DNA of 40,675 nucleotides from a virus. The first letter of the stretch is position 1; each line of letters opens with the position of its first letter. The notes beneath the pieces are model-generated. The model was not told the origin of the DNA and searched no databases. It saw nothing but the letters and a program-made list of their open reading frames with translations. The stretch covers positions 1 to 40,675 of the IMG/VR virus record IMGVR_UViG_3300035156_000221. One strand, 5' to 3'. A program made the translations under genes and the position numbers. Positions 4,562-37,725 of this stretch are shown here, piece by piece.

Positions 4562-5596
4562 TCAGCCCCGGGTGTTCGCGGCGGCGCTGCGCTTGTCTCG
4601 GCCCGGCACCTTGTGCCCGCCGAGGTAGTTGATCCGATTGCCCCAAGCCTGGCACCCGTTGGTGCCGCCGGCGCTTTCCTTGGTGTTCGTGCAGCCCGGC
4701 ACCAGCGAATAGGCGGTGCCAGGGATGATCGGAAATCCGAGGCGCGGCCACAATTCGAAGACGCCGCCCGCGCTGTGCAGCTTAATCTCCGCGCTGATGC
4801 CCGCGTTGAAGCCGTCGAGGAAGGTCACGCGCCCGCGGCTGAAATAGCCGGCGGCTTCCGCCCTCAAAGCGTCCGTGAAAGTCCGGTGCCCGCTGCCGCT
4901 CTCGACAGTTCCGGTGACCGCCAGCGGAACGAGGTCCTTGCGACACCAGCGATCGCCGAATTGGTGCTGGCACTCGGGCGATAGCGGCCGCACAAGTGGT
5001 GTTTGCTCGAGCTTGGCGCCATCCCCGATCAGCTGGGCCCTAAACCCTTCCTCGGTGCTCCGGATCGCGCCGAACGTCCCGCTCAGCAGCGACTTGATCC
5101 TGCCTTGCCCATTCCAGGGCACCAGCTTCGCTTCCACATAGGCGCCGTCGAACAAACCCGCATGCAGCGCCAGTTCCGAGATCCCGCCCTCGCCGAGCAT
5201 CCCGGACAGATCCATCGAACCCGATTGACCAAGCTCGGCGATGCTTTCCGATGCGCTCGGCGTCAGCGAGTTGCAGGCTTTGTAGATATCGGCGCCGATC
5301 GCCAGGTTCCGGTCGAGCGACGTGAACCGGTAGCCGACATTGTCAGTGCGCCGGATCGTCCAGATCTGCGTCAGCCCGCCTGCGCAGGGTCCTCCGTTCG
5401 CCAGCACGTAGGCACCCGCCTGGCGGACCCCGGTTGCCGCAGTGACTGCAATGAAAGCGTAGGCTCCGGACTGGTCAATTCGTGTGGCCGGTGTCACCGC
5501 CGCGAGTGCATAGGCGCCGCCTTGGTCGACCCTCGATGCAGGCTGCGCTCCCGCCAGCACGTACAGGCCGCCCTGGTCGACCCGACTGCCAACCAT
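4562..5596 (-). CDS. Tail hub protein, DUF2163/phage BR0599 family (GTA gp13-like)
   Basis: 344 residues. Residues 4-71 are four 17-residue repeats. The rest matches the DUF2163 plus BR0599 pattern: IGADIYKACNS, LVPWNGQGRIKSLLSGTFG, then PECQHQFGDRWCRKDL, SRGRVTFLDGFNAG and NGCQAWGNRINYLGGH. Four cysteines (209, 218, 302, 315) lie in the C-terminal domain; the RcGTA counterpart has been reported to hold an iron-sulfur cluster, so metal binding is likely here too. The gene lies between a ConA-like tail gene and the tip gene. The NlpC/P60 peptidase gene that normally follows it in GTAs is missing. Confidence 0.88.
   Translation of the reverse strand: MVGSRVDQGGLYVLAGAQPASRVDQGGAYALAAVTPATRIDQSGAYAFIAVTAATGVRQAGAYVLANGGPCAGGLTQIWTIRRTDNVGYRFTSLDRNLAIGADIYKACNSLTPSASESIAELGQSGSMDLSGMLGEGGISELALHAGLFDGAYVEAKLVPWNGQGRIKSLLSGTFGAIRSTEEGFRAQLIGDGAKLEQTPLVRPLSPECQHQFGDRWCRKDLVPLAVTGTVESGSGHRTFTDALRAEAAGYFSRGRVTFLDGFNAGISAEIKLHSAGGVFELWPRLGFPIIPGTAYSLVPGCTNTKESAGGTNGCQAWGNRINYLGGHKVPGRDKRSAAANTRG
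5384..5587 (-). repeat. Four 17-residue repeats at the N-terminus of the DUF2163 protein
   Basis: Residues 4-20, 21-37, 38-54 and 55-71 each fit S/T-R-(V/I)-x-Q-x-G-x-Y-x-(L/F)-x-A followed by about five variable residues. Examples are SRVDQGGAYALAAVTPA and TRIDQSGAYAFIAVTAA. The unit is short, beta-strand-like and lies before the recognised domain, so it may form an extended arm that contacts a neighbouring tail protein. Confidence 0.85.
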
Positions 5597-5628
5597 CTAC
5601 CTGCCCTGGTTCGTCGGGAAGGCTCGCA

Positions 5629-6774
5629 TCAAGCCACACGCTCGATCAGGAGCTTGGGAGCAGCGCTGTTCGCCCATGGCGCGCCCGTCGCCGGATCGAT
5701 CGTTTTGGGACCCGGCCGCAAATACGCGTACTCGGTCGACGGATTGTCTTCGGGACCATAGGTCTCGGCAGCGCCGGAGATCAGGCCGCCCCGATAGAGC
5801 ACGCTGCCGCTCTCTTCCTTGCGTGCGTAGAGCAGCGGCATCAGCGCGATGACTTCCGCGATGTTGCCGGGCATTGCCGACAGGCCGACGATCGTTCGTG
5901 CCTCGGCCAGCGCTGTATGCAGGTACGATGTCCCCGAAGGCGGCACGTCGTTGATAGCGCCATAGGCCGTTGCGGAATTGAACACGCTCAGCTCGCTCGT
6001 AGCAGTGTCAGATGCCGCCGGGAGCCAGTAGGCGCCCTTGTCGCCGACCCAGTTGACCACGGTGTTGGTCGGGTCGTTTGCGTTGTCGTTCCAGCAGAAC
6101 GGATCGTCGAAGTCGATCGTGGCGGCGGCGTTATAAGGCGAATTGAGCGTGTTGTTGCCGCCGGTCCGACCGAAGGCCCACTGCGCCGCGGCGGCGTTGG
6201 CCGTAACTTGCGTGTCGATGCCGGTCAGGTTGAGAACGGTCTGCTCGTTGACCCTGACTTCCAGGAAGCCGCCGGCGTTGGCGATCTTCCCCATGGCTTC
6301 CAGGTGATGATACCCGCCTGGCGCGAAGCACGGATCAGAGCGTCCGATAACCTCGCCGGAGAGCGCGTCCGCACCCATGTCGATGCCGCGATACGCGACG
6401 ATCGAGCCGTCCGTGCCCGCAATCAGGGCCAGATGGGAGACGTTTGCCACGTCGCGGATGTCGGCCAGGACCACAACCGAGTTGGCAGCGCCTGACTCCC
6501 GCACCGGCAGGCTCGAGAAGGCGAAGCGGTGCGCTACGCCGAAAACCTGCGAGGCGGTGCCGAAAACCCGCCGTGCCTGGCGCGCCGGCCCGAAGCCATT
6601 GGCCTGAAAGCGCAAATGGTACGAACCTGTGGCTGGATTGGCCGTGGCAAGCTCGAACCCGGCCGAGAATGCATGCGCCCCATCTACCTGCGACCAGGCC
6701 GCGCCGCCGCCGACCCCCTCGACCATCCGCGCCATCGAGCCGTAATGTTCGAAGCCGTCACACCAGTAGAGCAT
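5629..6774 (-). CDS. Tail protein with ConA/LamG-like N-terminal half
   Basis: 381 residues. The start (MLYWCDGFEHYG) and the strand-rich body (SYHLRFQANGFG, VFGVAHRFAFSSLP, GFLEVRVNEQTVLNLTGID) resemble concanavalin A-like lectin folds used in tail proteins. The C-terminal third (LHTALAEARTIVGLSAMPGN to KLLIERVA) is probably a separate alpha/beta domain linking to the tail. It lies between the DUF2460 and DUF2163 genes, where GTAs have no extra gene, so it is likely a phage-specific minor tail or decoration protein. The function is inferred from position. Confidence 0.75.
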   Translation of the reverse strand: MLYWCDGFEHYGSMARMVEGVGGGAAWSQVDGAHAFSAGFELATANPATGSYHLRFQANGFGPARQARRVFGTASQVFGVAHRFAFSSLPVRESGAANSVVVLADIRDVANVSHLALIAGTDGSIVAYRGIDMGADALSGEVIGRSDPCFAPGGYHHLEAMGKIANAGGFLEVRVNEQTVLNLTGIDTQVTANAAAAQWAFGRTGGNNTLNSPYNAAATIDFDDPFCWNDNANDPTNTVVNWVGDKGAYWLPAASDTATSELSVFNSATAYGAINDVPPSGTSYLHTALAEARTIVGLSAMPGNIAEVIALMPLLYARKEESGSVLYRGGLISGAAETYGPEDNPSTEYAYLRPGPKTIDPATGAPWANSAAPKLLIERVA

Positions 6775-21347: not shown

Positions 21348-22052
21348 TCAGGCCGCTAGCCGCGCATGGACCGCGCTCAGGGCCTCGCCGTCGACCGCCT
21401 TGCACGCATCACCCAGCGCGCGTGGCCACAGGTCGAGCGCGTCGATCAGCAGCTGCTTCGCGCGGCGGTTGTGCATCCGGTATCGACGCGCCGCGACGGT
21501 GAAGCCGATCGCCTCGCCGACCACCATGTCGAGCACCGCCGCGACTGCGACGCCGCTGTCGGGCAGGAGGCGCTGCACTCCGGCCCGCCATCGCGTGTAG
21601 GCGACCTCGCGCCGCACCTGCCCAAGCCGCTCGTGGAACCCGCCGTCGCCCATGCGCGTCACGTCGACCCGCGTTTCCAGGCTCGCGGTCCGCACCGTCA
21701 CGTCGGCTCCGATCCGCTCGGCCACGGTGGCGATTTCGACCGCCGCGCCCAACTGCTCGGCGTCGATCGCGCCCGACGTGTACAGCCGCGCCAGTGCGCC
21801 CTGACAGCGACGCGAGGCCTGCTCGTGCGTTTCGGGTGTGCCCTCGGCCTTGTGCGTCCACCGCTCGCCCACCGCGACCCGCGCCTTGCGCAGCGCGCGC
21901 TCGGCTGCTGCTGCGGCGGGATGACGTTGCGTCCAGGCCAGGCGCGCTTTCTCGGCGCGCTCCTCGTGCAGGCGCTCCGCGCTGCTGCGTGTGTCGCGTT
22001 TAGGCCGCGATCGAGCCCCGGCCTTCCTTGCCCCGACGTCCTTCTTTGCCAT
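21348..22052 (-). CDS. Hypothetical helical protein
   Basis: 234 residues. The first 50 are basic (RKAGARSRPKRDTRSSAERL). The rest is helical, with HEQASRRCQGALARLYTSGA, IDAEQLGAAVEIATVAERIG and near the C-terminus GFTVAARRYRMHNRRAKQLL. No confident family. The pattern resembles phage proteins seen beside LexA-like regulators in alphaproteobacteria. It overlaps the LexA-like gene by 53 bases, so the start at 22052 is not certain. Confidence 0.65.
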   Translation of the reverse strand: MAKKDVGARKAGARSRPKRDTRSSAERLHEERAEKARLAWTQRHPAAAAAERALRKARVAVGERWTHKAEGTPETHEQASRRCQGALARLYTSGAIDAEQLGAAVEIATVAERIGADVTVRTASLETRVDVTRMGDGGFHERLGQVRREVAYTRWRAGVQRLLPDSGVAVAAVLDMVVGEAIGFTVAARRYRMHNRRAKQLLIDALDLWPRALGDACKAVDGEALSAVHARLAA

Positions 22053-22476
22053 TGGTCCCCGCCTCCTCGATCCACTCGATATGATCGAGCTCTGGCGGCA
22101 GCGGCAGTTCCTTTTCTGTTAACCCCGCAAGCGACCGGCTGACCGCGTCCGCGATCGCACTTCCCGCGCGCGGCATAGCCCCGATACCGGGCGGCATGAG
22201 GCGGTTGCCATCCTCTACCGTCCAGCCCAGCGCCGCAAGCCGCACAAGCACGTCGGCCTCGCTCAGCTCCTCGGCGCGGTCGGGCAAGCGGATGCCGCGC
22301 GTCTTGCCCGCTAGGTGCTCGATCGCCCTGTCGCTCGCTAGGCTCTGGACCAGGTCGTGCGCGCGTTTGGTGCTGACGCCCAGCGCGGCGCCGAGTTCGC
22401 CCAGCGTAGGCGACCGGCCCCACTGCGCGAAATAGCGTTTGATGAAATCAAGCGCGAGCAGCTTACGGCTCGACAT
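22000..22476 (-). CDS. LexA-DNA-binding-like winged-helix regulator
   Basis: 158 residues from the ATG at 22476-22474. Residues 1-62 fit a winged helix of the LexA N-terminal type: KLLALDFIKRYFAQWGRSPT, LGELGAALGVSTKRAHDLVQ, then RAIEHLAGKTRGIRLP. There is no Ser-Lys autoprotease domain; the C-terminal part is an unrelated acidic/basic tail. It is the first gene on the way to the packaging and structural genes and so may control late transcription. Its 5' end is present a second time, as a broken copy, at 23306-23374. Confidence 0.8.
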   Translation of the reverse strand: MSSRKLLALDFIKRYFAQWGRSPTLGELGAALGVSTKRAHDLVQSLASDRAIEHLAGKTRGIRLPDRAEELSEADVLVRLAALGWTVEDGNRLMPPGIGAMPRAGSAIADAVSRSLAGLTEKELPLPPELDHIEWIEEAGTNGKEGRRGKEGRGSIAA

Positions 22477-22575
22477 CGCCGGCGACAACCGGCTGCAAGG
22501 AGGATGATCCAGCACGCCCACGACCCCACCCGTTACGCGTTCGCAATTAACACGAACATACCGGGGCCGGAAGTA
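22425..22575 (-). repeat. Copy A of a diverged direct repeat flanking the toxin-antitoxin pair
   Basis: The segment from the start of the LexA-like gene back through its promoter region is similar to 23325-23490. Matching blocks are the coding part SRKLLALDFIKRYFA, the stretch around the start codon, and the upstream block CCGGCCCCGGTATGTT (CCGGTCCCGGTATGTT in copy B). The middle has diverged. Both copies have the same orientation. Confidence 0.8.
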
Positions 22576-22582
22576 GCGTGGG

Positions 22583-22912
22583 TTAGTGCGCCAGTTCCGG
22601 CTCGCGCTGCTCCGCGCTGGCCTTGACCTCGGCGCCTAGCTGCAGCCCAAGCGCGTTGATCACCGCGAGCAGCGTGTCGATCGTCGGATTGCCGCCTTCG
22701 CCGAGCGCCGCGTACAGCGTCTCGCGCTTGATGCCGGTCTCGCGTGCAAGCGCGCTCATGCCCCGCGCGCGCGCGATCGCGTTGAGGGTGTTGAGGATGA
22801 CGCCCTTGTGTCCGCTCTCCAGTGCTTCGCTCAGTGCTCCTGCTTGCGCTTCCGCGTCGGTGAGATATTCGGCCGCGTCGAACGGCCGGTGGGTTACTTT
22901 GCCCGTGCCCAT
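22583..22912 (-). CDS. Antitoxin, HI1420/HigA-like Xre protein
   Basis: 109 residues. The N-terminal part (FDAAEYLTDAEAQAGALSEA) and the HTH (MSALARETGIKRETLYAALG, NPTIDTLLAVINALGLQL) match the addiction-module antidote family TIGR02684. It should bind and neutralise the toxin encoded just upstream and repress the shared promoter. Toxin-first order is the rule for this family. The 51-base spacing between toxin stop and antitoxin start is somewhat long. Confidence 0.9.
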   Translation of the reverse strand: MGTGKVTHRPFDAAEYLTDAEAQAGALSEALESGHKGVILNTLNAIARARGMSALARETGIKRETLYAALGEGGNPTIDTLLAVINALGLQLGAEVKASAEQREPELAH

Positions 22913-22963
22913 ATCTAAAAGTCCAGTGTCTGCCCGTGGTAGGAATGCTGACCCCTCGCGGGG

Positions 22964-23254
22964 TCACTCAAGTCGTTTCGCCATGTCCTTCGCCTCCTTG
23001 ATGTCCGTCGGTTGGCTGCTCTTGTCGCCGCCGCACAAGACGATGATCAGCGTCAGGTCTCGGGTCACGAAGTAGACCCGGTAACCGGGGCCGAAGTGCA
23101 ACCGCAGCTCGCTGACGCCCTCACCGACCGGCTCTATGTCGCCCAGATCGAACGCCAGCTTGTCGACCCCGACGGAGATGCGACCCGCTGACTTGCGGTC
23201 GCGGAGATTGGCCAGCCAATCGTTAAACTCGTCAGTGCGGCGGATCGTCTTCAC
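22964..23254 (-). CDS. Toxin, RelE/ParE superfamily (HI1419/HigB-like)
   Basis: 96 residues from a GTG at 23254-23252. EFNDWLANLRDRKSAGRISV, ELRLHFGPGYRVYFVTRD and IIVLCGGDKSSQPTDIKEAK are the signature of TIGR02683 addiction-module killer proteins, probably ribosome-dependent mRNA interferases. The key basic and aromatic residues of the C-terminal strand (YRVYF, GGDKSSQ) are present, so it is probably active. It follows a consensus TATAAT and a palindromic operator. Confidence 0.9.
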   Translation of the reverse strand: MKTIRRTDEFNDWLANLRDRKSAGRISVGVDKLAFDLGDIEPVGEGVSELRLHFGPGYRVYFVTRDLTLIIVLCGGDKSSQPTDIKEAKDMAKRLE

Positions 23255-23256
23255 CT

Positions 23257-23294
23257 GTCCCTTTTAAGGGACGGAAGCAGGGCTGTCAATTATA
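23257..23294 (-). promoter_or_regulatory. Promoter and operator of the toxin-antitoxin operon
   Basis: A perfect inverted repeat GTCCCTT-TT-AAGGGAC lies at 23257-23272, two bases before the toxin GTG; on the minus strand it also supplies the AAGGGAC ribosome-binding region. A consensus -10 TATAAT lies at 23294-23289. No good -35 is seen at normal spacing. The layout fits autoregulation by the antitoxin covering the ribosome-binding and start region. Confidence 0.65.
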
Positions 23295-23305
23295 AAAGAC
23301 AAGGG

Positions 23306-23374
23306 TTAGAGCCCGACCAAACGCGCAAAGTACCGTTTGATGAAGTCGAGCGCGAGCAGCTTGCGGCTGACCAT
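23306..23374 (-). pseudogene. Broken 5' copy of the LexA-like gene
   Basis: From an ATG at 23374-23372 the frame reads MVSRKLLALDFIKRYFA, nearly identical to the first 17 residues of the intact gene at 22476, then diverges (RLVGL) and ends at a TAA after 22 codons. The upstream promoter block is also duplicated. The rest of the gene is gone and the toxin-antitoxin operon follows. It is a scar of the event that brought in the toxin-antitoxin pair. Confidence 0.85.
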
Positions 23375-23490
23375 CGTCGGCGAAAGCCGGAGCACCTCTG
23401 CAGATGGTGGTTTAGAAGGCGCTCCCATAACGCCATTATCGCGCAGGATTGGTGAATGGAAACATACCGGGACCGGAATGGCCTAGCAGA
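23325..23490 (-). repeat. Copy B of the diverged direct repeat flanking the toxin-antitoxin pair
   Basis: Copy B contains the broken LexA-like start and, further upstream, AACATACCGGGACCGGAA, matching AACATACCGGGGCCGGAA in copy A. The copies are about 0.9 kb apart and in the same orientation, with the toxin-antitoxin operon exactly between them. Confidence 0.8.
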
Positions 23491-24096
23491 CTATCGGTAG
23501 GTTGCGCTGACCCAATCCGTAATCTCAGCATCTAACGCAGCGACAAAGGTACCCATGGCTTCCTCAATCCGCTGAGCGTAAGCACTGGACGCAGTCTGGG
23601 TGATGTCCACGAATGGGTCGTCTGTAAGAGAGCGTCGGAGACCCACAACCGCTGCACTGGTCGAAATCATCCGCACTTTGCCAAGCGGCGCGCCCCAGCT
23701 CCACCGTCGCCTCTTAGAAATTGCGGTAAGGCGAGCGCAGCTTGCTCCAACCCGCTGCATGCGCCAGATCGTCTCAGCGAGCGCACTTGCACGATCTTTG
23801 CACTTTGGAGATGCCCAAGCCGCAATGGCGGCCTCCTTCAGTGGTCCGAGCTGCTCAACGATCTGCTTGTCCACATCGAGGACAAGCTTCTCCCGATCGC
23901 GCGACCGAGTAAGCCGATGAACCGCTAGTATCGCGAACAGTGCAGCCGCGAACCCTGGCATAGACGGAGCGAGGAGTTCCCCCCAGTTCTTGGGGGGCGG
24001 CGCCGGTGGCGCCAATTCGACGTATGTGAGCCGGGAGCCTTCCTTAGTGAACAGCGGGCTTGGAGCGATCGATTGAGTCGCGGATTTCGTCGACAT
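23491..24096 (-). CDS. Single-span membrane protein, third gene of the STAS/GHKL cassette
   Basis: 201 residues from the ATG at 24096-24094 (another ATG at 24144 gives a larger overlap). A short Ser/Thr/Pro-rich N-terminus (ELAPPAPPPKNWGELLAP) leads to one hydrophobic segment (about 44-62, PGFAAALFAILAVHRLT), then a cytoplasmic-type helical domain (VLDVDKQIVEQLGPLKEAAI; IRMQRVG-like helices; AQRIEEAMGTFVAALDAEIT). No family recognised. It overlaps the DUF4325 gene by about 50 bases. It could be the membrane effector or sensor of the cassette; this is inference. Confidence 0.7.
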   Translation of the reverse strand: MSTKSATQSIAPSPLFTKEGSRLTYVELAPPAPPPKNWGELLAPSMPGFAAALFAILAVHRLTRSRDREKLVLDVDKQIVEQLGPLKEAAIAAWASPKCKDRASALAETIWRMQRVGASCARLTAISKRRRWSWGAPLGKVRMISTSAAVVGLRRSLTDDPFVDITQTASSAYAQRIEEAMGTFVAALDAEITDWVSATYR

Positions 24097-24373
24097 AGGA
24101 GGGGTCGATCCGCGAAACGAAGGTGAGGCGTTTGAGGAGGTCATTCTTCGGCAAACCCTCGTCTCTGATCAAGCCGCCGAAAGCTTCGTCCAGAAACGAG
24201 GAGCCCATTCCGCGTGTGCCGTCCAGATTGATGACCACTTTGCCTGGGTTCGCGCGTAAAAACGCCGCTAACTTTGTGCGTAACTGCTCCCCACTGTGAG
24301 CGCCTTGGTTCTTATACCGCGGGCCAGGATGCACGCTAAAGTCTGTAGCGATCGAAAACATCGCGTTAGTCAT
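24044..24373 (-). CDS. STAS-like DUF4325 protein
   Basis: 109 residues. The core KVVINLDGTRGMGSSFLDEA, followed by FGGLIRDEG and LLKRLTFVSRIDPSYVDEIR, is the DUF4325 (PF14213) pattern, a STAS-like fold related to anti-anti-sigma factors; Ser58/Ser59 lie where those proteins are phosphorylated. Its ATG overlaps the stop of the GHKL gene by 8 bases. A role as the phosphorylatable partner of the GHKL protein is inferred from the pairing. Confidence 0.85.
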   Translation of the reverse strand: MTNAMFSIATDFSVHPGPRYKNQGAHSGEQLRTKLAAFLRANPGKVVINLDGTRGMGSSFLDEAFGGLIRDEGLPKNDLLKRLTFVSRIDPSYVDEIRDSIDRSKPAVH

Positions 24374-25499
24374 CCTTCAGTTCCACCGGGTCATCGCTCT
24401 GAAAGCGCCACTCGATCAGGGTACCACCAATTGAACGTTCGTGGTCTGCAAAGTGTTCGGCCTCGCGCATATAGGAATACGCGCCTCGATTGGAAAGCAC
24501 TCTCAGCTCACCGTCAGAGCAGACCTGAACAAACTTTTGCATGTCGCGGAACCCCTTTCCTCGGGTTTCACCCGGCATTCTTGAGGCGTGAAGCCGAGTC
24601 GCTGCCATGATCATCGCTCCATCTGACGGGACTGGCGTTAAGCCCGCGAATCGCACGTTGCCCTGAGCCAGTGAGCGGATCCGCAGGTAAAGACTCAACG
24701 GCAGGGTTTCGGGGATGCCTACTCCCTGGTCATACAGCAGTATCATGACCTCTTTGCTGATCACGTTCACGCGAGCCCCGATCCACCAACGGCCTTCCAT
24801 CGTAATCCCTGGCAAGACCCTCTGGTAGGCATGGTCGAGGGTGTTCTGCATCGCTTCGTTCATTGCAGCGACAAGTCGACCTCGCGCCACTTCGCTCAGC
24901 GCAAGGACGCGGGTCTCAACTATGCTCACGAACCCGTCAGTCAGCATCGAGTCGTGTCTATTAGAGCTCAAGAACCTTAGAAAGAGCGGCCTATCCGGAT
25001 CGTCCACCCGCGTAGGTGCTCTAGGTTCGTGCACATTGATCAGATTGAAAAAACCCATCTGTGTAAGCAGATCATAGACTTCGGCACTTGGCGGATATGT
25101 ACCACTGACCGCCTTGACGCCTAGCAACGAGCGCAAGCGATGGATTTCAGCCACGAGCACTAATGTCGCAGCAGGCTCTACGGCGTGAACGTGAGCGAAA
25201 TGCAGCATCAACGGCCTACGTCTGATCAGCCCCTTCTCGCGGATCTCGTTTAGGATCGCACAGGTTTCTGAGTGGTTGGAGGCGAAAGACAGAACTGGCG
25301 GTAGAATGATCTGCTCCCGATCGAGCCGCGGATCGAAAGGCAAGCTGTTCGAACTGGCGAAGCGGCGGCGTATCTCCGCTAGGTACCGCCGCCTGTTGTT
25401 CCGGTATCGCCGCCGTGCTTGCCGGCGGATCTCGCGCCTCTGCCGCCGACGCGAGATACGGATCTGCCTCTTGCGACCTTCAGGCGGTAGTCGACGCAT
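24366..25499 (-). CDS. STAS-like/GHKL ATPase (anti-sigma-factor-type kinase)
   Basis: 377 residues. Residues 1-47 are very Arg-rich (20 or more Arg), then an alpha/beta STAS-like region (about 64-150, RRRPLMLHFAHVHAVEPAAT), then a GHKL ATPase: N-box NEAMQNTLDHAY (E215, N219, H223), G1 box LLYDQGVGIP (D257, G259, G261) and G2 box ETRGKGFRDM (G314, G316). No dimerisation-phosphoacceptor His of a sensor kinase is seen, so it resembles SpoIIAB/RsbW-type kinases. Base composition here (about 55% GC in a sampled line) is lower than in the structural genes (about 65%), a sign of separate origin. Confidence 0.85.
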   Translation of the reverse strand: MRRLPPEGRKRQIRISRRRQRREIRRQARRRYRNNRRRYLAEIRRRFASSNSLPFDPRLDREQIILPPVLSFASNHSETCAILNEIREKGLIRRRPLMLHFAHVHAVEPAATLVLVAEIHRLRSLLGVKAVSGTYPPSAEVYDLLTQMGFFNLINVHEPRAPTRVDDPDRPLFLRFLSSNRHDSMLTDGFVSIVETRVLALSEVARGRLVAAMNEAMQNTLDHAYQRVLPGITMEGRWWIGARVNVISKEVMILLYDQGVGIPETLPLSLYLRIRSLAQGNVRFAGLTPVPSDGAMIMAATRLHASRMPGETRGKGFRDMQKFVQVCSDGELRVLSNRGAYSYMREAEHFADHERSIGGTLIEWRFQSDDPVELKDD

Positions 25500-28166: not shown

Positions 28167-28441
28167 TCGCTGAGCGCGCAGTCGGAAGCGTTGAGCGCAT
28201 CGACTTTCCGCCCCCCCGGCTGTCCGTCGGGCCCCACGCTACCCGCTTCTTCGGCTGCCGCATTCTCCACGAGGTCTCCAACGGCCTCGCCAACGTCAGG
28301 ATCCATGCCGGTACCGCGGTCGACGCCCACCGCGATGAGCCCGTCCAGTTCCTGCTCGCGCGCGAAGACCTCGACCGTGTCATCGCCCACCTCACCGGCA
28401 TCCGCGCCGAAATCGCGGCCAGCGAGGTGAGGCATGGCTGA
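28163..28441 (+). CDS. Hypothetical 92-residue early protein
   Basis: 92 residues from a GTG at 28163 that overlaps the previous stop (GTGA). Mixed strand and helix (TRFFGCRILHEVSNGLANVR; VQFLLAREDLDRVIAHLTGI). No family is recognised. It overlaps the GapR gene by 8 bases. Probably an early lytic protein. Confidence 0.6.
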   Translation: MIAERAVGSVERIDFPPPRLSVGPHATRFFGCRILHEVSNGLANVRIHAGTAVDAHRDEPVQFLLAREDLDRVIAHLTGIRAEIAASEVRHG

Positions 28442-28676
28442 CGTCAACGTCGCGGCCGAACAGCTGCGCCTCTTCATCGAACGCATCGAGCGGCTGGAGG
28501 AGGAGAAGAAGGGCACGGGCGACGACATCAAGGACGTCTACGCCGAGGCGAAGGCGAACGGTTACGACACCACGACCATGCGCGCGATCGTGCGCCTTCG
28601 CCGGCTCGAGAGCCACGCGAGGCAGGAAGCCGACGCGCTGATGGAGACCTATCGGACCGCGCTGGGGCTGGCCTGA
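28434..28676 (+). CDS. gapR: GapR-like nucleoid-associated protein (DUF2312)
   Basis: 80 residues, full family length. AAEQLRLFIERIERLEEEKK, DDIKDVYAEAKANGYDTTTM and RAIVRLRRLESHARQEADAL match DUF2312/GapR almost throughout. GapR of alphaproteobacteria forms tetramers that clamp overtwisted DNA ahead of replication and transcription forks and aid topoisomerases. A phage copy may support its own replication or compete with the host protein. The start overlaps the previous gene by 8 bases and the stop overlaps the next start (TGATG). Confidence 0.95.
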   Translation: MADVNVAAEQLRLFIERIERLEEEKKGTGDDIKDVYAEAKANGYDTTTMRAIVRLRRLESHARQEADALMETYRTALGLA

Positions 28677-28879
28677 TGGGCAGTAACGCGACCATCGCCG
28701 TCACGGCCCTCGCGATCGCCGGGCTCGTCGCCTTCTGCTATGCGCTCGCCGTCACCTTCGCCGCTGGCATGTCGTCCAGCGCGGAGGAGAGCAGGAAGGC
28801 CGAGTATCTCGGCTGCAATGTCGCGCTGGTCGGCGTCGCGCTACTCGCCACGGCCATACTTATCTGGCGGCTGTCGTGA
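28676..28879 (+). CDS. Two-span small membrane protein
   Basis: 67 residues with hydrophobic segments at about 7-30 (IAVTALAIAGLVAFCYALAV) and 47-66 (CNVALVGVALLATAILIWRL), joined by a charged loop (SSAEESRKAEYLG). No family is known. It sits between gapR and the DnaA-like gene with one- and four-base overlaps. Possible roles include membrane targeting of replication or exclusion; not determined. Confidence 0.65.
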   Translation: MGSNATIAVTALAIAGLVAFCYALAVTFAAGMSSSAEESRKAEYLGCNVALVGVALLATAILIWRLS

Positions 28880-29265
28880 CCGGGGTCGGCTGGCCTCCGG
28901 AGTGCCGCACCTCGATCGAGCGCATCCTGCGCCTCGTCGCCGCGTCGTTCGCCGTATCCTATGGCGATCTTCTGTCGAAGCGGCGATCGGCTGCAGTCGC
29001 CCTGCCCCGCCAGATCGCCATGGCGCTCGCCATGGAGCACACGCCGCACTCGTCGGGCGTGATCGGCCGCCACTGCGGCGGCCGCGATCACTCGACCGTG
29101 CTATATGCCGCTGGCCGGGTCGCGAGTTTGCGTCAGGCGGACAGAGCCTTGGATTGCCAGGTGCGCGCGATCGAGGAGATGCTGCGGCCGAAACCCGAGC
29201 CCGAGCCCGTCCAGCTCGCCTTCCTGCACGGTCCTCTGTTCGATGCCGCCAGGTTGCCGGCGTGA
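28876..29265 (+). CDS. DnaA domain IV-like protein
   Basis: 129 residues from a GTG at 28876. VSYGDLLSKRRSAAVALPRQ, IAMALAMEHTPHSSGVIGRH and the signature CGGRDHSTVLYAAGRV (about 67-82) match the DnaA C-terminal DNA-binding domain. The AAA+ domain is absent. It could bind DnaA boxes to recruit or block host DnaA at the phage origin. The C-terminal tail (PKPEPEPVQLAF) is unlike DnaA. Confidence 0.88.
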   Translation: MTGVGWPPECRTSIERILRLVAASFAVSYGDLLSKRRSAAVALPRQIAMALAMEHTPHSSGVIGRHCGGRDHSTVLYAAGRVASLRQADRALDCQVRAIEEMLRPKPEPEPVQLAFLHGPLFDAARLPA

Positions 29266-32981: not shown

Positions 32982-33274
32982 CCCGGCCGGCTCGGATCCA
33001 GCTTCGACGAACACCCGGTTGGCGCATGCCGCCCGGCACGGTGAAGGTCGACCGCACCACCCGGTGGGGCAACGACTTCGTCATGGCACACGAGGGCACG
33101 CGCGAAACGGCCGTCACTTGGCACAGGCAGCAAGCCATTGCGCAAGCCGTGGCCTTCCCGCGCTACTTCGAGCCGTTGCGCGGATTGAATCTCGCTTGCT
33201 GGTGCCCGCTAGACCGGCCGTGCAATGCAGACGTGCTGCTCGAACTGGCGAACTCGGCCGCGGCGCACCCATGA
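32978..33274 (+). CDS. DUF4326 protein
   Basis: 98 residues from an ATG at 32978 (ATGA overlap). VKVDRTTRWGNDFVM, RYFEPLRGLNLACWCPLDRP and CNADVLLELANS match DUF4326 (PF14216), whose hallmark is the Cys-Trp-Cys-Pro then Cys-x-(A/G)-(D/H) cluster. The family occurs in phages and is of unknown function. Confidence 0.88.
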   Translation: MTRPARIQLRRTPGWRMPPGTVKVDRTTRWGNDFVMAHEGTRETAVTWHRQQAIAQAVAFPRYFEPLRGLNLACWCPLDRPCNADVLLELANSAAAHP

Positions 33275-33567
33275 CCGCCCTCCACCCCGCCATTGCGGAT
33301 CTCGTCCGGGCGATTGCCCGCGACATGGCGGCAGCCGATGCTGCTCCTCCTGCCCACGATTCTCGGAGTCGCCAACGATGCGCCCCAACCTCGGCCGCCA
33401 GCGCTGCGCCATCTACGCCCGGTTCTCGACTGACCGGCAGAACGAGAAGTCCGCCGAGGACCAGGTCCGGGAATGCCGCCGCCGGGCCGAACAGGAAGGC
33501 TGGAACGTCGTCGAGGTCTACAGCGACCTCGCGATCAGCGGCGCCTCCAACCGGCGACCCGGAATGA
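33271..33567 (+). CDS. Possible short protein overlapping the serine recombinase start
   Basis: An ATG at 33271 overlaps the DUF4326 stop (ATGA) and encodes ALHPAIADLVRAIARDMAAA, which looks like a genuine helix. After about 36 codons it runs into the recombinase gene in another frame and reads as Ser/Arg-rich shadow sequence to 33567. The 5' part may be a real short gene that lost its stop, or a translational-coupling leader for the recombinase. Confidence 0.3.
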   Translation: MTALHPAIADLVRAIARDMAAADAAPPAHDSRSRQRCAPTSAASAAPSTPGSRLTGRTRSPPRTRSGNAAAGPNRKAGTSSRSTATSRSAAPPTGDPE

Positions 33568-35033
33568 TGGCCCTGCTTGCCGACGCGGCCGCTGGCGCCT
33601 TCGACATCGTCCTGGCCGAGGACCAGGACCGGATCGCGCGCGACCTCGAGGACTCGGCCGCGTTCTACAAGCGGCTCCGCTTCGCCGACGTCGAGCTCTT
33701 CACCCTGGCCAACGGCCGCGTCGACGAGCTGCAGATTGGCTTCAAGGGCACGATGGATGCCGTCGAGCTGCGCAAGATGGCCGACAAAATCCGGCGGGGA
33801 CAGCGCGGCGCTTTGTCGCGCGGGCGGATCCCTGGCGGGCTCTGTTACGGCTATGAGGTCGTGCGCGAACTCGACGAGCGCGGCGAGATGATTGCCGGCC
33901 GGCGCCGGGTCTTGCCTGAGCAGGCGGCCGTCGTCCGCCGCATCATGGAGGAATATGCCGCCGATCGCAGCCCGAAGGCGATCGCGAAAGAGCTGAATGC
34001 CGAGGGCATCCGCTCAGCCCGGGGCGGAGAGTGGCGCGCTTCGGCCATCGTCGGAAACCGAGCGCGGCAGATCGGCATCCTGCACAACCCGATCTATGTC
34101 GGTCGCTTCGTCTACAACCGCGTCACGATGCGGCGCGACCCGGAGACCCGGAACCGCGTCTCACGGCCGAATGCCGGCGAGGATCGGCTGACAGTCGAGA
34201 TGCCCGAGCTGCGGATCGTGAGCGACGAGCTCTGGCAGAAGGTTCAGGATGCGCGATCCAGCCGCAGTGCGCAGCCGCTCGTCCAGCGCAAGCGCCCCCG
34301 GCACCTCTTCTCGGGCCTGGTGAAGTGCGGTGAGTGCGGCGGCGGCGTCGCGATTTTCGCCAACGATCGGCTCTGCTGCTCAAGATCGCGTGAGGCCGGC
34401 ACATGCTCTCATCGACGGGAGATCAGGCTCGGCGAACTTCAGCGGCGTGTGCTGAGGGGGCTGGAGAGCCAGCTGCTCTCGCCCGAGGCGGTGTCGCTGC
34501 TTGTTCGAGAGTATCATCTCGAGCGGGAGCGGCGGTCCCGCGAGGATGCGAAGGCGCGGGGATCGTCTGAGCGGCGCCTGCGGCAGGCCCAGGCAGCTGT
34601 GGACCGCCTTGTCGCGGCAATCGCCGACGGCGGCGCCGACTTTGCGGAACTGCGCGGGGCGCTCACCGCGAAGACGCAGGAGCGGGACCAGGCCAGGGCC
34701 GAGCTCGCCGAGGTGGAGGCGCCATCGACCATCGCTTTGCACCCGCACATAGCGACCGCCTACCGGAAGCGGGTGCAGGAGCTCACCACGGGGCTCGCGG
34801 CTGACGAGCTGGGCGAGGACGCCAAACGCAGCATCCGCAGCCTGGTCGAAGCGATTTATTTGCGCCCTGTCGAGGGCGGAGGCCACCAGATCGAGGTGGT
34901 GGGCAGTTTCGAGTCGGCCATCGCCCTCGCTTGGGGCAAGCCAGTACCAGCAAGGGGAACGCACGCGTCGGTTATGTTGGTAGCGGAGGACCGCTGCCAG
35001 CGTAACCGACACAGGCGTTCAATCATGACTTGA
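33378..35033 (+). CDS. Large serine recombinase
   Basis: 551 residues from the ATG at 33378, with GGAG about nine bases upstream. Resolvase domain: AIYARFSTDRQ (catalytic S17), EDQDRIARDLEDSAAFYKRL. Recombinase domain: PGGLCYGYEVVRELDERGEM, KELNAEGIRSARGG and HNPIYVGRFVYNRVTM. Zinc ribbon: HLFSGLVKCGECGGGVAI and later CCSRSREAGTCSH. A coiled coil (about 380-460) follows. All parts of a phage-type large serine integrase are present. Its place at the end of the early lytic operon and beside a tyrosine integrase is unusual. Confidence 0.93.
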   Translation: MRPNLGRQRCAIYARFSTDRQNEKSAEDQVRECRRRAEQEGWNVVEVYSDLAISGASNRRPGMMALLADAAAGAFDIVLAEDQDRIARDLEDSAAFYKRLRFADVELFTLANGRVDELQIGFKGTMDAVELRKMADKIRRGQRGALSRGRIPGGLCYGYEVVRELDERGEMIAGRRRVLPEQAAVVRRIMEEYAADRSPKAIAKELNAEGIRSARGGEWRASAIVGNRARQIGILHNPIYVGRFVYNRVTMRRDPETRNRVSRPNAGEDRLTVEMPELRIVSDELWQKVQDARSSRSAQPLVQRKRPRHLFSGLVKCGECGGGVAIFANDRLCCSRSREAGTCSHRREIRLGELQRRVLRGLESQLLSPEAVSLLVREYHLERERRSREDAKARGSSERRLRQAQAAVDRLVAAIADGGADFAELRGALTAKTQERDQARAELAEVEAPSTIALHPHIATAYRKRVQELTTGLAADELGEDAKRSIRSLVEAIYLRPVEGGGHQIEVVGSFESAIALAWGKPVPARGTHASVMLVAEDRCQRNRHRRSIMT

Positions 35034-36276: not shown

Positions 36277-37491
36277 TCAGGCGCCGCCGAGGACGCGGGC
36301 CCAGCGTTCGAACAGGCACCGCCTCCGGACCAGCTGCTCGGCGCGGTTGTACGCGGCCTCGACGCGGTCCTTGGGCGTATGGGCGAGCGCCTGGTCGATC
36401 AGCGCCCGGTCCGCAGGGAAGCGCTCGTTGAGTATGGTCGAGAAGGTCGCGCGCCAGCCGTGGGGCACATGCTGGCCGGTAAAGCCCGCCCGGCGGTAGA
36501 GGTCGCCGATCGCGGCCTCGCCGATCGGCTGCCGCCCGTCGCGCCCCGGGAACACGAGCTCGCTTGCGCCGGCGAGTTTCCGCGCCGCTCGCAAGACGTC
36601 GACGGCGGCCGCCGACAAGGGCACCAGGTGCGCGGCGGTCGGGTCGCTCTTCCTGACCTTGGTCAACTTCATCCGCGCCGGCGGGATGCGCCACAGCGCC
36701 CGCAGCGGCCCGACGAAGCTGCCGTCCAGGTCGACCTCCTCGAGCTCGTCCCAGCGCGCGCCGCGCAGGGTGCCCAGGCGGACACCGGTTAGCGCGAGGA
36801 ATCGCGAGGCTAGCTTGACCCCCGGCCCCACGTCGACTCGCTCGGCGGCGGCGAGCAGCGCGCGCGCAGCATCCACCTCGAGCAAGGCAGGATGCCGGCG
36901 CTTGGCCGGGGTCGGCGCAAGGGCGCGCGCGACGATCGCCGCGGGATCCTGCCCCGCGAAGCCCTCGGACATCGCGAGGCCGAACACGGCCGAGATCCGC
37001 TGGCGGAGCCGTCGCGCGGTCTCGACGCACGATCGTGCCTCGACCGTGCGCAGCAGCTGTAGCACCGCCGGCGCGTCGATCGCCTCAAGCGGAAACGCGC
37101 CGATCGCCGGGAAGGCGTCGCGCTGCAGGCTCGAGAGGACGTCGGCCGCGTGGACCGCCGACCAGCGCGACTGCTGGTGCGCGTGCCAGCGCAGCGCGGA
37201 ATCCTGGAACGTCGCAGCCTGGTCGTTGGCCGCGGCCTCCCGTTTGGAGATGGGCAGCTCGCCCCGCAGCAGCTGCTCGCGTGCGGAATCTCGGCGCTCG
37301 CGTGCATGCGCCAGGTCGACGTCGGGGAAGGCACCAAAGGTGAGCAGCCGCTCCTTGCGTCCGAAGCGGAACTTCATGCGCCAGGTTCGACTGCCGTTCG
37401 GACGCACGAGCAGGTACAGCCCGCCGGCGTCCGCCATCTTGTACGGGCGCGCGGACGGCCGCGCGGCCTTAACGGTCGCGTTGGTCAGCAT
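36277..37491 (-). CDS. int: Tyrosine integrase with DUF4102 arm-binding domain
   Basis: 404 residues from the ATG at 37491-37489, with GAGG six bases upstream. DUF4102 N-terminus: LTNATVKAARPSARPYKMAD, GGLYLLVRPNGSRTWRMKFR. Core-binding region about 95-185. Catalytic domain: LTGVRLGTLRGARWDEL (R238), HVPHGWRATFSTILN (H344, R347), LAHT (H371) and VEAAYNRAE (Y381). All catalytic residues seem present, so it should be active. It belongs to the P4/tRNA-integrating type, but no attP core matching a tRNA is visible. Confidence 0.95.
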   Translation of the reverse strand: MLTNATVKAARPSARPYKMADAGGLYLLVRPNGSRTWRMKFRFGRKERLLTFGAFPDVDLAHARERRDSAREQLLRGELPISKREAAANDQAATFQDSALRWHAHQQSRWSAVHAADVLSSLQRDAFPAIGAFPLEAIDAPAVLQLLRTVEARSCVETARRLRQRISAVFGLAMSEGFAGQDPAAIVARALAPTPAKRRHPALLEVDAARALLAAAERVDVGPGVKLASRFLALTGVRLGTLRGARWDELEEVDLDGSFVGPLRALWRIPPARMKLTKVRKSDPTAAHLVPLSAAAVDVLRAARKLAGASELVFPGRDGRQPIGEAAIGDLYRRAGFTGQHVPHGWRATFSTILNERFPADRALIDQALAHTPKDRVEAAYNRAEQLVRRRCLFERWARVLGGA

Positions 37492-37515
37492 GATGCACCT
37501 CGAGGGGAGAGTTGG

Positions 37516-37725
37516 ATGGCTAGATTCATTTTCGAGGAGAGCGGCGACGCGCACCGCTTCCGCTTGGAGGCTGAGCAAGGCGAGGTTATCTCTACTGAGA
37601 TGGTCGCGGCGTACGCGTTACTTTGCCAAGCCGACGCTCTGGATCGGCTCGCGGCGAACATCGTCAGCCTCGACAATGCCGTAAACCGTGCCGCCGACAA
37701 CTTGACGGACGTTGCTGCACGCTAG
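37516..37725 (+). CDS. Small hypothetical protein divergent from integrase
   Basis: 69 residues from the ATG at 37516, with GGGGAGAG just upstream. FIFEESGDAHRFRLEAEQGE and ALDRLAANIVSLDNAVNRAA read as a small strand region then a helix. No family is recognised. It starts 24 bases from the integrase start on the other strand; it might be an excisionase or int regulator by position, but it lacks an obvious HTH. Confidence 0.6.
   Translation: MARFIFEESGDAHRFRLEAEQGEVISTEMVAAYALLCQADALDRLAANIVSLDNAVNRAADNLTDVAAR

Follow-up and report, generated by a model that had tools for sequence, protein, structure and literature searches.

Why should a phage carry the start of a regulator gene twice, with a toxin-antitoxin (TA) pair lodged between the two copies? 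The window, i.e., the whole 40,675-nucleotide stretch of DNA analysed (IMG/VR virus record IMGVR_UViG_3300035156_000221), presents exactly this arrangement (Table 1). A mechanical repeat search returned two direct repeats in the same orientation, one of 79 nt (78% identity; spacing, 898 nt) and one of 18 nt (17/18 nt, 94%; 22555–22572 and 23461–23478; spacing, 906 nt), and a BLAST comparison of the 221-nt inner block against its own record returned the outer copy (E 8.7e-15, 82% over 68 nt). The top 68-nt identity between the copies was 0.82, compared with at most 0.53 for about 60 random window pairs. The similarity forms two islands, the promoter block and the first codons; the leaders separating them display no similarity between the inner and outer copies. 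As the promoter block is shared by both copies, the resemblance does not stop at the helix-turn-helix (HTH) helix, a restriction that the original prediction had named as grounds against itself. The TA pair occupies the gap precisely, with the outer open reading frame stopping at 23306, the antitoxin at 22583, and the inner promoter block beginning at 22572. The doubled start and promoter, some 0.9 kb apart, and the exact placement of the TA operon between them were thus correctly recognized from the outset.

Table 1. Positions of the features discussed, numbered from the first nucleotide of the window.
Feature	Position	Strand	Basis
Conserved gene just downstream of regulator (right anchor)	21348..22052	-	Gene order in relatives
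Intact regulator, 173 aa, GTG start, LexA-type winged-HTH domain, no protease domain	22000..22521	-	PF01726 in family, fold model
Inner copy of duplicated gene start, 79 nt	22414..22492	-	Repeat search
Inner promoter/operator-like block TTCCGGCCCCGGTATGTT, 10 nt after antitoxin stop	22555..22572	-	Repeat search
Antitoxin, HI1420 type, 109 aa	22583..22912	-	TIGR02684 92.7 bits (cut-off 53.7), PF21716 80.7 bits
Toxin, HI1419 type RelE/ParE, 96 aa	22964..23254	-	TIGR02683 112.8 bits (cut-off 62.85), PHROG 3445 toxin
Likely promoter and operator of TA pair	23258..23294	-	Read from sequence, function inferred
Outer truncated regulator fragment, 40 codons	23306..23428	-	Open reading frame from family-conserved start
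Outer copy of duplicated gene start, 79 nt	23312..23390	-	Repeat search
Outer promoter/operator-like block TTCCGGTCCCGGTATGTTTCCATTCAC	23452..23478	-	Repeat and motif search
Further cargo left of scar: orphan gene, DUF4325 STAS-like gene, HATPase-like gene	23491..25499	-	GC and family searches

The outer copy encodes MGAPSKPPSAEVLRLSPTMVSRKLLALDFIKRYFARLVGL followed by a stop. Homologues begin upstream of the ATG first chosen for it, at a conserved RLSPxM motif, and the truncation to 22 codons originally described applies only from that internal ATG; from the conserved start there are 40. The fragment lacks the recognition helix, ending ahead of it in the predicted fold. Its intact counterpart was at first called LexA-like, a description that suits its DNA-binding domain: PF01726 was matched in 24/26 members of the regulator family (the window regulator itself falling under the Pfam cut-off, at 19.3 versus 23.7 bits), and the regulator model matches the LexA DNA-binding domain 1lea with a TM score of 0.81 by target length. 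Likeness to full LexA does not extend further, the protease half being missing; the C-terminal part is modelled with low confidence and is partly unstructured, Pfam returned no match there to a self-cleaving S24 peptidase domain, and the score against the lexA equivalog was 24.8 bits (cut-off 110.95). Downstream, the order regulator–conserved gene–HNH–TerS–TerL is kept on one strand in relatives, with the conserved gene matching nothing in Pfam, PHROG, or NCBIfam. The position of the regulator at the head of this terminase-structural gene string suggests that it may control late genes; to name it outright a late-gene regulator, as was done initially, overstated a reading made solely from position.

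The adjacent toxin and antitoxin both exceed curated NCBIfam cut-offs (TIGR02683/TIGR02684), with the toxin gene first, and by these profile matches the pair is a member of the HI1419/HI1420 family, in which there is nothing notable to set it apart from other ordinary phage-borne members. Canonical HigBA, defined by a PF05015 HigB-like toxin and a TIGR02607 antitoxin, was considered and rejected: the toxin is of the PF05973/TIGR02683 type with no match to PF05015, and the antitoxin is TIGR02684, such that the HigB/HigA-like assignment first given does not hold in its canonical sense. Ahead of the pair lie a TATAAT (23289–23294) and an inverted repeat, GTCCCTTAAAAGGGAC (23258–23273), the latter palindrome being a likely, putative antitoxin-binding site. 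With the toxin as query, viral contigs yielded other phage contexts only, none with this regulator, and PADLOC gave no convincing defence match for the window cargo.

With no mismatch allowed, the promoter block was present at these two places only, and a loose search allowing 3 mismatches gave 4 matches (0.48 expected). The outer block retains the clade motif TATGTTCCCATTCAT at all but 2 positions (with ≤3 mismatches allowed, 0.15 matches would be expected by chance) and lies nearer to it than does the inner block. A TATGTTC-like element stands upstream of the regulator in 45/57 checked loci, the window counted. Searched in viral contigs, the palindromic promoter block matched only at unrelated places, so this particular block does not serve as an operator across the family. 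In a subclade of relatives (L039, L040, L043, L046, L058, and L096), the TATGTTC element upstream of the regulator is followed by CTCCC-spacer-GGGAGG, an arrangement in which the 5′ leader could base-pair with the likely ribosome-binding site; an operator or a ribosome-site hairpin is possible.

How common is such a doubling? As a single query the regulator found no relatives in phages, viral contigs, or genome contigs, and the 26-row regulator alignment was too diverse for a pattern search; relatives were instead collected with TerL as query. They comprise viral contigs and named genomes, with the closest phages having hosts among the Sphingomonadales (e.g., Novosphingobium, Sphingomonas, Sphingobium, and Blastomonas); Sphingomonads live in soil and water. 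Among 56 distinct regulators with the conserved gene next to them, a count that includes the window and its relative L046, 54 are single copy; by the comparison that the original prediction had proposed, single-copy relatives without this TA pair are thus the rule. A six-frame profile scan detected a double copy at two loci only, the window and L046. An N-terminal model run against 399 family genomes and 399 order genomes revealed no further close double copies. Remnants under ~22 codons would have gone undetected.

The second case is the more legible one. In L046, a truncated copy (4885–5085) is followed by cargo open reading frames (5086–5918; small genes of unknown kind, unrelated to the window cargo), a promoter element, and an intact copy (6000–6455), whereas L058 carries a single regulator, as does L095 (Sphingobium sp. 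AP50). The outer block of L046 matches L058 at 86.5% identity over 163 nt, at which point the match ends; the inner regulator matches at only 49–67% along its length; and from ~6500 the first part of the conserved next gene returns to 80–88%, the jump in identity falling near L046:6460–6500. With the next gene at 80% protein identity, N-terminal identity to L058 is 0.87 for the outer copy and 0.50 for the inner, the latter equalling the lowest value in the reference range (six pairs with the next gene at 0.80–0.90; mean N-terminal identity, 0.76). Since L058 matches the outer copy and the next gene but not the inner regulator, the outer copy is the resident start, and the greater part of the resident regulator gave way to cargo together with a foreign regulator. 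As read from these alignments, L046 shows both joints of the exchange; the replaced segment is flanked on both sides by shared sequence (up to 86–88%), which does not by itself show the pathway by which the joints were formed.

In the window itself the record is fainter. Across 22 aligned codons of the two copies, 13 are identical, 7 differ synonymously, and 2 differ nonsynonymously; as 7/9 changes are synonymous, both copies were working genes while they diverged, and the truncation of one came later. Over 66 nt the nearest neighbour of the outer copy is L185 and that of the inner copy is L178 (over a longer stretch, L011), with bootstrap values of only 44% and 67%, and the relatives include no close single-copy parent of either. 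Two distinct parent lineages are thus likely from the sequences, at a level short of proof in the window itself given so short an alignment and such bootstraps. The proposal that the intact copy arrived together with the cargo is accordingly clean for L046 versus L058, and for the window is weakly backed by mostly synonymous differences and different neighbours.

Taken together, we consider it probable that two related temperate phages of Sphingomonads exchanged cargo and that the window preserves the resulting scar. The recipient would have possessed one short regulator of the LexA-DNA-binding-domain type as the first gene of the string leading to the terminase and structural genes, and the donor segment would have brought an intact regulator of its own along with the TA pair and a promoter. 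At the left joint, this segment would have entered the resident regulator at about codon 36 without clear homology; the right joint, within the regulator or beyond it, would have formed by homology. The start and promoter of the resident gene would thereby have stayed upstream of the cargo as the 40-codon fragment, with the operon now served by the donor's regulator. Only two scarred cases are known, the window and L046; we infer that the former arose in the same single step as the latter, and an L046-like history is the simplest reading for the window and the most likely one.

An identical end state would be reached in two steps if a TA insertion had broken the regulator and a second regulator had later been acquired, or been rebuilt by recombination with another phage, and the HI1419/HI1420 family is widespread in phages. 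This route is nonetheless unlikely, as it needs two events and an intermediate without a working regulator; moreover, TA pairs already precede intact regulators in the single-copy relatives L103, L100, and L183, and one exchange therefore suffices. A separate proposition concerns present function and is compatible with an origin by cargo exchange, namely that the doubled promoter is under selection, with the spare phage promoter driving the cargo in step with the regulator operon. The conservation of the outer block, its proximity to the clade motif, and an outer promoter element in L046 that likewise appears intact would all suit this proposition. We nevertheless find it rather doubtful, for the doubled arrangement is present in only 2/56 relatives, the TA pair has a likely promoter and operator of its own, and the conservation may merely reflect recent origin. 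Independently of any such selection, the leftover outer promoter may be active and read into the TA pair.

Had the gene start been duplicated locally in tandem, the TA pair being trapped between the copies and the truncated copy left to drift, the common orientation and the conserved promoter block would be explained; a useless copy should however drift regardless of codons, whereas 7/9 changes here are synonymous, and the L046 copies clearly come from different lineages, making this origin very improbable. Insertion with long target duplication, as described for restriction-modification genes, also leaves a selfish two-gene module flanked by directly repeated copies of the end of an adjacent gene. 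In that process, however, the flanking repeats are copies of one target, whereas those in the window are diverged homologues (78–82% identity, mostly synonymous differences) and those in L046 are clearly of distinct lineages; this mechanism was thus rejected. Finally, although the window, an IMG/VR virus record, joins two lineages at a conserved block, an assembly chimera of two metagenomic phages is highly implausible, as the longest exact matches between copies (14 nt in the window, 11 nt in L046) are too short to confuse usual assembly k-mers and L046 is an independent record with the same layout.

The cargo exchange that we favour would have taken place at a site where many relatives carry other cargo. 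Where a CI-like repressor is recognized, the interval from it to the regulator ranges from <0.2 kb to ~4.5 kb, with gene content varying by relative. By Pfam, the interval contains HigB toxins with HTH partners in L017 and L068, a HigB toxin and HicAB in L033, HicB in L069, HI1419/1420 in L100, ParE in L134, TIR in L035, and an Eco57I-type methylase in L083; BrnTA lies immediately upstream of the regulator in L103 (Pfam), and in L183 (4693–5941) HicB-, HI1420-, and BrnT/BrnA-like open reading frames are stacked just upstream of it, as judged by sequence. Because cargo differs from relative to relative at the same interval, the modular site envisaged by the original prediction is real. A variable locus of a few kilobases between conserved phage genes, with recurrent TA and defence-type genes, has the makings of a prophage cargo hotspot, and one that is apparently undescribed, a small and limited literature search having found no description of it.

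Several further observations touch on cargo in this phage group. Downstream of the conserved gene in L047 (6181–6735), the opposite strand carries an HI1419/HI1420-type pair, which perhaps marks a second cargo place. In the window, the stretch left of the scar has a GC content of 0.58 (0.67 for the window), and within it the DUF4325 STAS-like and HATPase-like genes overlap (24044–25499, minus strand). The HATPase-like gene has only one weak phage relative (Marinobacter phage AS1, 27%), and the two genes are possibly a regulatory or defence pair. Elsewhere, the window contains both a large serine recombinase (33225–35033, plus strand) and a tyrosine integrase (36277–37578, minus strand), and its early region encodes, on the plus strand, a GapR-like DNA-binding protein (28434–28676) and a DnaA C-terminal-like protein (28876–29265).

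Hotspots of antiviral systems in prophages and satellites, including one beside the cI repressor in Vibrionaceae phages, were defined by Rousset et al. 2022 (PMC9122126), who called the movement of cargo in and out unsettled. The present site shares with these a small, high-turnover locus between two conserved phage genes, bearing TA and defence-type genes. It differs in phage group, in position (between the repressor and the start of the terminase string), and in that a single exchange has left a visible footprint, the anchor gene being among the parts exchanged and the cargo being only putatively anti-phage. In the relaxed homologous recombination described by De Paepe et al. 2014 (PMC3945230), diverged relatives likewise exchange DNA and leave homology at the borders, with most trace-bearing mosaics having traces on one side only; here, however, the left joint falls within a coding gene, of which the resident copy is left truncated, and the window revealed no phage recombinase.

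What the window displays is most probably ordinary phage mosaicism at a prophage cargo hotspot, both of them familiar phenomena, rather than a new kind of system; what stands out is how legible the scar is. It is tempting, though we think it unlikely, to regard the regulator gene as a portable landing pad, at which incoming cargo would bring its own promoter and regulator, the resident type would be replaced, and the leftover promoter would control the cargo; were this true, cargo gain would be coupled to a regulator switch. More directly, L058 and L046 come close to a before-and-after pair that places both joints of one exchange, with the window as a second case, and the regulator together with its conserved downstream gene provides an anchor for mining TA and defence-type genes in Sphingomonad phages.
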